42,691 nucleotides of DNA from a virus: the IMG/VR virus record IMGVR_UViG_3300030107_000147, positions 1 to 42,691 of that record. One strand, 5' to 3'. Made by a program: the position numbers and the translations under genes. Position 1 is the first letter of the stretch, and every line of letters starts with the position of its first letter. This document shows, piece after piece, positions 4,653-6,172 of this stretch. A model generated the notes under the pieces. The model made no database searches. It worked only from the letters and a program-made list of their open reading frames with translations, and was not told the DNA's origin.

Positions 4653-4916
4653 TTAATTCTGATAAGAGTTCTTATATGAATGGTCTATTACTTTAATAAT
4701 TCTAATTCTTCCTGTAGTATCACCAATTTCTTCAATATGCTCTATGTCCGCTTTAACCTGTCCACAAGCAAACTTAACGTGTTCAGGATTTATCGTTCTC
4801 ATGGCAACCCTCTTATTTTTCATACAGTCAACCATAGATTTTTGGTATGTATGTTCTACTAAATCTCCATTTAACCACATACACAACGCCCAAACCATAA
4901 CTCCTAATTCTTTCAT
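4653..4916 (-). CDS. Small protein with hydrophobic N terminus
   Basis: This encodes 87 residues. The N terminus, MKELGVMVWALCMWLNGDL, is hydrophobic enough for an export signal or a short membrane anchor, and two or three Cys follow. The ATG overlaps the stop of the preceding gene (TAATG), and GGGAG sits about 14 bases upstream. It lies between the spanin-like gene and the terminase genes, so a lysis or envelope role is possible. I recognise no family. Confidence 0.7.
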   Translation of the reverse strand: MKELGVMVWALCMWLNGDLVEHTYQKSMVDCMKNKRVAMRTINPEHVKFACGQVKADIEHIEEIGDTTGRIRIIKVIDHSYKNSYQN

Positions 4917-5281
4917 TAGTGATTACTCCCATTTGCTTTTCTAAATTTGTTTTTTAATTCTTCTACGTCTTTTTCTAATTTTGTTATTTTCTTTTCAGCT
5001 TCAATTAATAAAACCTTTGTATGTACATTTTCATCTAATTGGTGTTGATGTTTTTCTAATACACCTGCATTATGTTCAATTAACATGTACATCTCTAAAT
5101 TTTTTGGTGTCTGGTCTGCCTTTTTTAAGAGGTCTGCGGACATCAGTTCTTTAGAAGTTTCTAATTTATTTAATCTCTCCTGAATTTGAAAAAATCCATA
5201 TAAACCAGAACAGATTATAAAAATTAAAGCTATTAAATTACGAACAGGTAATGATACCTGTGTATTATCATTTATTTTCAT
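4916..5281 (-). CDS. Membrane-anchored coiled-coil protein, possible i-spanin
   Basis: This 121-residue protein has one N-terminal membrane segment (about residues 13-31, PVRNLIALIFIICSGLYGF). A mostly helical, charged region with coiled-coil character follows (LNKLETSKEL; IEAEKKITKLEKDVEELKNKF). That is the build of an Rz-like inner-membrane spanin. A lipoprotein candidate for the partner lies 145 bases upstream (5426-5626). T7 has its spanin gene 18.5 in this neighbourhood. The start overlaps the end of the Cys-rich gene by 14 bases. The spanin role is inferred from topology and place. Confidence 0.7.
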   Translation of the reverse strand: MKINDNTQVSLPVRNLIALIFIICSGLYGFFQIQERLNKLETSKELMSADLLKKADQTPKNLEMYMLIEHNAGVLEKHQHQLDENVHTKVLLIEAEKKITKLEKDVEELKNKFRKANGSNH

Positions 5282-5426
5282 ATTTTACCTCATCTTCGTA
5301 AGTCATGTCTGTAGCATGGTCTATTTTTTTGTCGTATTGTCTTTTGCTTTTATTACATTCACAATTAGCACACTCATTAGATGTACCATCACAATGACAA
5401 TCACAATTACAGTCTGCACAAATCAT
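5268..5426 (-). CDS. Cys-rich metallothionein-like mini-protein
   Basis: This 52-residue frame starts MICADCNCDCHCDGTSNECA. Eight Cys fall within residues 3-24 in the pattern C-x2-C-x-C-x-C-x-C-x6-C-x2-C-x-C, with a His between two of them. The C-terminal half is charged and Cys-free. The spacing is that of metal-thiolate proteins, so metal binding is likely but unproven. The ATG overlaps the stop of the lipoprotein gene (TAATG) and the end overlaps the next gene by 14 bases, so it is embedded in a compact operon. It has no signal peptide and no membrane segment. It could also be a redox or zinc-finger-like protein. Confidence 0.75.
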   Translation of the reverse strand: MICADCNCDCHCDGTSNECANCECNKSKRQYDKKIDHATDMTYEDEVKYENK

Positions 5427-5626
5427 TACTTGGTTATCCCATTAAGTCTTAAACCCCATTTAAAGGTTTGTTTAATTGACTTATTAGTTTTATTTTTACC
5501 ATTTTCTGATGTTCCATATTCTATTGTTGTAGTATTTGGTTCTATTGTTCTATTACAACCACTTAAAAACATCATTAAAGTAAGAAGAGAACAAACAAAA
5601 GTTACTGAAACAATGTATTTAGTCAT
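5426..5626 (-). CDS. Small lipoprotein, possible o-spanin (Rz1-like)
   Basis: This encodes 66 residues. A short positive start is followed by a hydrophobic stretch and a lipobox (MFLSGC, Cys24), so the mature protein would be a lipid-anchored peptide of about 43 residues. Small outer-membrane lipoproteins next to a membrane-anchored coiled-coil protein are typical spanin pairs, which fuse the membranes at lysis. The mature part is Thr/Asn/Lys-rich rather than Pro-rich, so the spanin call is not certain. The start overlaps the upstream gene by eight bases. Confidence 0.75.
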   Translation of the reverse strand: MTKYIVSVTFVCSLLTLMMFLSGCNRTIEPNTTTIEYGTSENGKNKTNKSIKQTFKWGLRLNGITK

Positions 5627-5813
5627 TGTTTTTCTTCTTTTTATTTTTTTTAGGTTTTTTCTTTTTAGAAACTTTATCCATCACACTTTCAATCATAGAA
5701 ATCTTTACTTTAACTTCTGTCATGTCATTAGATAATTTAAAAGTTTGACTTAAATTCCAACCACCTAAAGCAAGTAAAATTGCTAATAAAGCAGTGATTA
5801 GTTTTTCATTCAT
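5619..5813 (-). CDS. Single-pass membrane protein with poly-Lys tail
   Basis: This encodes 64 residues: an N-terminal membrane segment (LITALLAILLALGGWNL, about 5-21), a helical linker with a possible short coiled coil (MTEVKVKISMIESVMDKV), and a tail made almost entirely of Lys (KKKKPKKNKKKKNN). The start ATG shares its A with the last stop base of the preceding gene. It may be a holin accessory, antiholin or pinholin-like protein given its place after the holin candidate. No family is recognised. Confidence 0.75.
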   Translation of the reverse strand: MNEKLITALLAILLALGGWNLSQTFKLSNDMTEVKVKISMIESVMDKVSKKKKPKKNKKKKNND

Positions 5814-6172
5814 TATTTCTTTTTAAGTTTATTCATTGTTGTTACACCGAATGATGCACCAACTATTGTTAATATTATGTACCAAAACATAGGGTCAGCA
5901 TTTTGTAATATTGTCCAACCACGTTCCATTGTGTCTTGGAAGTATGGTACGAAATGAAGTCCCATTAAAATTGTGAAAAACAAACATAACCACTCGTCTT
6001 TCCATGAGTGTTCTTGTTGACGTATTTGCTCTATTGAAATTTGTGATACTGCGTCTAGTTCTTTTTCTCTAACAATTTTATCTTTTTGTAATTTGTGTGA
6101 TATAGCACCAAAAGTTTTTTCTGCTATAATCTTCGTAAGGGGGTTTTTTAAAAGTGATAGAAAAGGTAGCAT
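5813..6172 (-). CDS. Holin-like membrane protein
   Basis: This 119-residue protein has two clear membrane segments in its second half (WLCLFFTILMGLHFVPYF, about 62-80, and MFWYIILTIVGASFGV, about 96-111). A weaker hydrophobic N terminus and a charged end follow the build of the three-segment holins found in marine phages and gene-transfer agents. The KDEW...P...W...P.FWY pattern supports that relation from memory. It would time membrane opening for the lysozyme. The gene sits in the T7 gene 17.5 position, after the fibre genes and before the terminases. Confidence 0.75.
   Translation of the reverse strand: MLPFLSLLKNPLTKIIAEKTFGAISHKLQKDKIVREKELDAVSQISIEQIRQQEHSWKDEWLCLFFTILMGLHFVPYFQDTMERGWTILQNADPMFWYIILTIVGASFGVTTMNKLKKK

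Follow-up and report, generated by a model that had tools for sequence, protein, structure and literature searches.

The window analyzed here, the whole of a 42,691-base IMG/VR record, comes from a Pelagivirus-like podovirus. It carries a group of small genes on the minus strand. A holin-like membrane protein of 119 aa (5813–6172) is followed by P0006 (5619–5813), a Lys-rich 64-aa protein with an N-terminal transmembrane (TM) segment; by a 66-aa, o-spanin-like lipoprotein (5426–5626) with the lipobox LSGC at residues 21–24; by the Cys-rich gene P0002 (5268–5426), which encodes 52 aa plus a stop; and by an i-spanin-like protein of 121 aa (4916–5281) with a TM segment and a coiled coil. Downstream on the same late strand is a lysozyme gene, the probable endolysin (2292–2714; Phage_lysozyme, E 1.7e-9). 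The start of P0002 sits within the stop of the lipoprotein gene (a TAATG junction, 1 nt overlap), and P0002 overlaps the TM/coiled-coil gene by 14 nt. An earlier note on this DNA had described P0002 as flanked by spanin-like genes and overlapping both. The overlaps are as described and make late co-translation plausible; late timing is also what the position of the gene suggests. The spanin identities are more tentative, being assigned from anatomy with weak PHROG matches. Several of the small flanking genes encode membrane proteins or lipoproteins, and for most of them "lysis" is a presumptive label, since their PHROG matches were weak or to families of unknown function (phrog_2524 for the holin-like protein, phrog_20984 for the coiled-coil protein).

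The P0002 frame runs uninterrupted from its ATG to the stop codon, and its product is MICADCNCDCHCDGTSNECANCECNKSKRQYDKKIDHATDMTYEDEVKYENK. Cys occupies positions 3, 6, 8, 10, 12, 19, 22, and 24, with His11 in the same stretch. This translation bears out the earlier description of eight Cys in 22 residues, in C-x-C and C-x2-C spacing with one His; there are four C-x-C and two C-x2-C steps. The protein is 15% Cys with a net charge of −5 (family medians, 17% and −4). No signal peptide, TM segment, or lipobox was found in it, and its AlphaFold model was poor (pLDDT 61). Alignment with relatives indicates that P0002 is bipartite. Residues 1–25 (5352–5426, minus strand) make up a putative metal module with C3, C6, C8, C10, H11, C12, C19, C22, and C24. 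Residues 26–51 (5274–5351, minus strand; KSKRQYDKKIDHATDMTYEDEVKYEN) make up a separate portable peptide, present once in the record, which the earlier note had missed. The metal module lacks a stretch of about 10 residues (DLHADEYGLC, two ligand positions) that is present in most relatives, leaving Cys8His. With these positions gone, metal loading in the window copy may be relaxed or may differ.

A chance ORF or a low-complexity artifact might be suspected, since TGT is abundant in the DNA of the Cys stretch and the closest isolates lack the gene. Against this, none of 100 dinucleotide-preserving shuffles of the window yielded an ORF of at least 50 aa with eight Cys in 22 residues; the maximum reached was six. 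Median dN/dS over 260 pairs of relatives was 0.096, whereas the two alternative frames gave about 1.4, and the relatives use both TGT and TGC for Cys. In relatives, the P0002 frame is under strong purifying selection. Given that selection and hundreds of homologs, we rejected the chance reading, which has almost no prospect of being right.

The homologs are widespread. A DNA pattern for CxxCxxDCHCD matched viral contigs in at least 119 places, nearly all of them short ORFs, and in 64 of 83 unique short ORFs a CxCxxCxC motif, a part absent from the query pattern, followed downstream. In IMG/VR, a search with a family alignment gave relatives, confirmed by tblastn, in at least 278 stretches. All of these collection-scan counts are lower bounds, and the records may be fragments. 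In the phage collection, tblastn masks sequence of low complexity, and it missed some members that were reached with other representatives. When P0002 alone was compared with viral contigs and exact 8-mer peptides were demanded, there was no match; Cys-spacing patterns did match, and one fixed-spacing pattern of seven Cys returned stretches without any family member by HMM. P0002 aligns end to end with many family members at 45–56% identity, through both halves and without the middle segment, and it fits the family definition of C-x2-C-x-[CH]-x-C-H-C followed by C-x2-C-x-[CH]. Two scans of 84,980 prokaryote genomes, both dependent on a CHC-type pattern, confirmed no cellular relative.

Most family members are found in HTVC023P-type phages, with others in Fussvirus, Stopavirus, Chosvirus, and T4-like contexts. 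A gene labeled "PurM", typical of HTVC023P-type pelagiphages, precedes the Cys gene in 92 of the 139 unique members with upstream sequence, and an unannotated member follows it in HTVC023P itself. The member in Fuss-, Stopa-, and Chosvirus is placed after the holin-like gene, the order seen for Gjalp gp42 and for unannotated genes of HTVC041P and KM23-C739. On a T7-like contig (L308), the Cys gene is right behind lysozyme. Some members lie in T4-like tail regions, assigned by eye from neighboring ORFs. The gene of about 215 aa upstream of the Cys gene carries conflicting labels in related records (L007, L331): GenBank versions call it PurM, RefSeq versions ferredoxin. Some phages have two different Cys-family or Cys-family-like genes (L300, the second about 1.3 kb downstream; L473, 2035–2244 and 3659–3784).

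We aligned 163 unique family proteins. The four Cys at the N-terminus and one His were present in 163/163, a figure biased by the choice of sets by Cys pattern; the same Cys/His conservation was seen in 27 proteins reached through a neighbor gene. Two later Cys were present in 161/161 and another in 155/160. The conservation check proposed in the earlier note thus returned seven Cys and one His with almost no variation. At three additional positions, Cys and His replace each other (85 Cys, 75 His, and 3 other; 137 Cys, 23 His, and 1 other; 128 His and 19 Cys), and the columns beside the ligand positions vary freely. Such swaps cannot be explained by disulfides and argue for metal coordination. 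P0002 very probably binds metal. The metal-thiolate pattern proposed earlier gains support from the homologs that keep it, from the Cys-to-His swaps, and from the purifying selection. Many CxxC and CxC steps would also suit a redox or disulfide protein, such as a thiol buffer or a disulfide-rich peptide. However, Cys is swapped for His rather than lost pairwise, the Cys count differs between members, and no export signal was seen. This reading appears very improbable, and the disulfide formation raised in the earlier note is disfavored, since a disulfide leaves no place for His and the protein carries no signal peptide. The other roles raised there, holding metals set free at lysis or tuning a metal-dependent enzyme, are candidate functions.

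No family in Pfam, PHROGs, NCBIfam, or PDB matches the P0002 family. The PF02069 (SmtA-like) profile matched neither P0002 nor 40 family members, and the family profile found no metallothionein in PDB at E up to 10. One member gave a sub-threshold match to Metallothio_5 (E 0.011). We found no description of phage metallothioneins in the open-access literature, although one may exist elsewhere. In the functional sense of the term, P0002 has the size and Cys content of a metallothionein (52 aa, 8 Cys, four C-x-C), and its family conserves Cys and His as metal ligands are conserved, with three C/H swap positions and the other Cys nearly invariant. The C-x-C-x2-C-x-C motif is common to bacterial metallothioneins and the P0002 family. 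The family is both acidic and Cys-rich, and so resembles small metallothioneins rather than DNA-binding fingers. SmtA/BmtA and the Pseudomonas metallothioneins are likewise proteins of 50–60 aa with about 15% Cys, a few His, and mixed Cys/His ligands (PMC7387436, PMC10612145). Pseudomonas metallothionein binds Zn3 with Cys9His (PMC7387436) and has a disordered C-terminal tail; SmtA binds four Zn (PMC7387436, PMC10612145). Unlike these proteins, P0002 has a different Cys order and spacing and no profile match, no regulator gene was seen adjoining it, and its family is phage-borne, with no member confirmed in cells. Because the profile of no catalogued metallothionein family matches, our claim is that P0002 works like a metallothionein, not that it is one.

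The C-terminal half has a distribution of its own. Residues 26–51 match the consensus KRxYxxxxDHxxDMSYENE, and a pattern for this peptide recovered at least 120 stretches of viral sequence. Of 93 distinct copies, DUF3310 (nucleotide-kinase-like) proteins carry 53 at the N-terminal end and Cys-family proteins carry 26 at the C-terminal end; 5 are inside scaffold-like proteins, and the others are on at least five other proteins. In all, the peptide is present on eight or more unrelated proteins of marine phages (examples are L516, L591, L533, L506, L520, L588, and HTVC033P gp29). Synonymous codons differ between copies, so it is the peptide that is conserved and not the DNA. Exactly one copy was present in each of the 16 records checked (15 large records and the window), although one copy per genome is a provisional rule because possession of a copy was the basis for choosing these records, some of which may be incomplete. 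Where the Cys protein is tagged, as in the window, any DUF3310 protein found is untagged, and no full Cys-family match was found in records with a tagged DUF3310 protein. Many Cys-family members are without the peptide, and the metal module is therefore independent of it.

These observations bear on the main rival to the metallothionein reading, a structural zinc-finger adaptor in which one or two Zn would fold a small knuckle and the tails would bind a partner, with no role in metal storage. An adaptor would fit the recurrence of the peptide on unrelated proteins and the tolerance of His at ligand-type positions in many members. It would also fit HTVC027P gp12, which at the same locus retains only CxxC...CxxCxC, and the best PDB match of the family profile, a small CPxCG-related zinc-finger micro-protein (8q5b; E 0.57, non-significant). 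This micro-protein resembles P0002 in its tiny size and CxxC pairs, whereas P0002 is without C-P-x-C-G and has many C-x-C steps and more ligand-type residues. HTVC027P gp12 resembles the family in its place after a PurM-like gene and in its CxxC, His-rich middle, and CxxCxC; it differs in its fewer Cys and its Trp/Lys amphipathic C-terminus, and is too divergent for assignment from sequence alone. Weighing against an adaptor, the dense C-x-C steps, with up to 11 Cys/His packed into about 30 residues, are more than one or two zinc knuckles need, the core is acidic and poor in aromatics, and the peptide module is missing in many members. We regard the adaptor as possible, if on balance unlikely. 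The tail on P0002 nonetheless suggests that a partner, not storage, may be the point.

The nearest isolates over the P0002 region are the SAR11 Pelagivirus podoviruses HTVC121P, HTVC105P, HTVC021P, and HTVC048P (91–94% identity in aligned parts). Between the conserved holin-like gene, which forms the upstream border, and the TM/coiled-coil gene lies a hypervariable slot, and this variability accounts for the absence of P0002 from close isolates. None of five isolates has a P0002-like gene; their slot holds a gene of 39–54 aa or nothing P0002-like. When the holin-like protein served as bait, none of the 80 pelagivirus-backbone loci listed contained a Cys-family member. The earlier statement that T7-like phages do not normally have such a gene therefore holds. 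The frame is missing from close relatives, an absence that the earlier note would have counted against the gene, yet related genes are common in other marine phages. P0006 and the lipoprotein gene are likewise absent from those relatives, save for one weak match (L021), and their homologs adjoin Cys-family genes in other phages. From this absence and the shared neighborhood elsewhere, the three genes look like one block, apparently exchanged between phage lineages with a common host.

In pelagivirus relatives, the same slot can encode a protein of 39–47 aa with an amphipathic N-terminus, in some cases with a CKCKGKCKCK end (L001, 3282–3401; L002, 3426–3545; L003, 3621–3743; L009, L021, L061, L071–L073, L083). 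This protein is another possible metal-binding microprotein. The type represented by HTVC121P gp52 resembles P0002 in its genomic slot and C-x-C Cys, but it has an N-terminal amphipathic helix and a Lys-Cys tail and is without sequence similarity to P0002.

With P0006 as the sole bait, a Cys-family gene was found within 2.5 kb in 36 of the 80 loci listed, which links the Cys gene to the presumed lysis block. This linkage is free of selection by Cys pattern because many of the genes so reached read NCHCS or DCHCN rather than DCHCD. One contig (L432) has the order P0006, P0005 (the lipoprotein), Cys gene, lysozyme, and a marker gene lies within 1.6 kb of the Cys gene in 50 of 85 HTVC023P-type members. 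Some contigs (L235, L238, L326, L371, L387) encode Trp/Lys-rich amphipathic segments, either as fusions to the Cys module or next to it; such segments are also present in HTVC027P gp12 (L331, 6641–6799) and, in L214 and L300, close to the Cys gene.

Because linkage to membrane and lipoprotein genes recurs across several genome layouts, a role in lysis is possible: the metal protein might set the timing or activity of adjacent membrane proteins, for example as a metal-dependent spanin or holin regulator. Lysis-type genes adjoin the Cys gene in the window, in HTVC023P-type phages, in Fuss-, Stopa-, and Chosvirus, and in L308 and L432; besides the retrieval with P0006, fusion to Trp/Lys amphipathic ends is seen in a few members. 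P0002 itself has none of the traits of a two-component spanin or known lysis protein (TM segment or lipobox, lysis-family profile), and most members are without a membrane segment. Others lie in T4-like tail regions and other contexts with no lysis gene nearby. Such slots gather small late genes regardless, and the lysis role of several neighbors is itself presumptive. We consider a lysis-module component improbable.

We give about an even chance to the metallothionein-like reading, in which P0002 is a late, cytosolic metal buffer encoded by the phage. Its N-terminal 25 residues would enclose a small metal-thiolate cluster, with Zn(II) the most likely metal and Cu(I) possible. The eight Cys and one His of this short variant would suit about three metals, a count that is a guess, and full-length relatives, with up to 11 Cys/His positions, might hold three to four. 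The protein would buffer or sequester metal freed late in infection, as host proteins are broken down, and the C-terminal peptide would probably dock the metal module to a partner. Weighing against this reading are the negative profile searches for known metallothioneins, the poor structural model, the two ligand positions lost from the window copy, and the tail with its hint of a partner. A more tentative proposal, and one we think rather unlikely, is that different marine phages have grafted an 18-residue docking peptide, one per genome, onto unrelated proteins, and that it is joined here to a new viral metallothionein-like module as a metal-carrying effector directed, near the lysis step, at a single conserved target of the host or the phage.

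Host zur, irr, and iron uptake genes go up on infection by HTVC027P and do not on infection by the pelagivirus HTVC022P (PMC12753301). A tie to phage metal handling is possible, but we kept this response out of the evidence because HTVC027P has only the divergent gp12.

The binding target of a portable peptide carried by at least eight unrelated proteins is a second lead from this locus. The first is a metallothionein-like gene that is common among marine phages, unannotated in HTVC023P and HTVC041P, and in no Pfam, PHROG, or NCBIfam entry. Such a gene would point to virus-directed trace-metal handling in a major ocean host–virus system.
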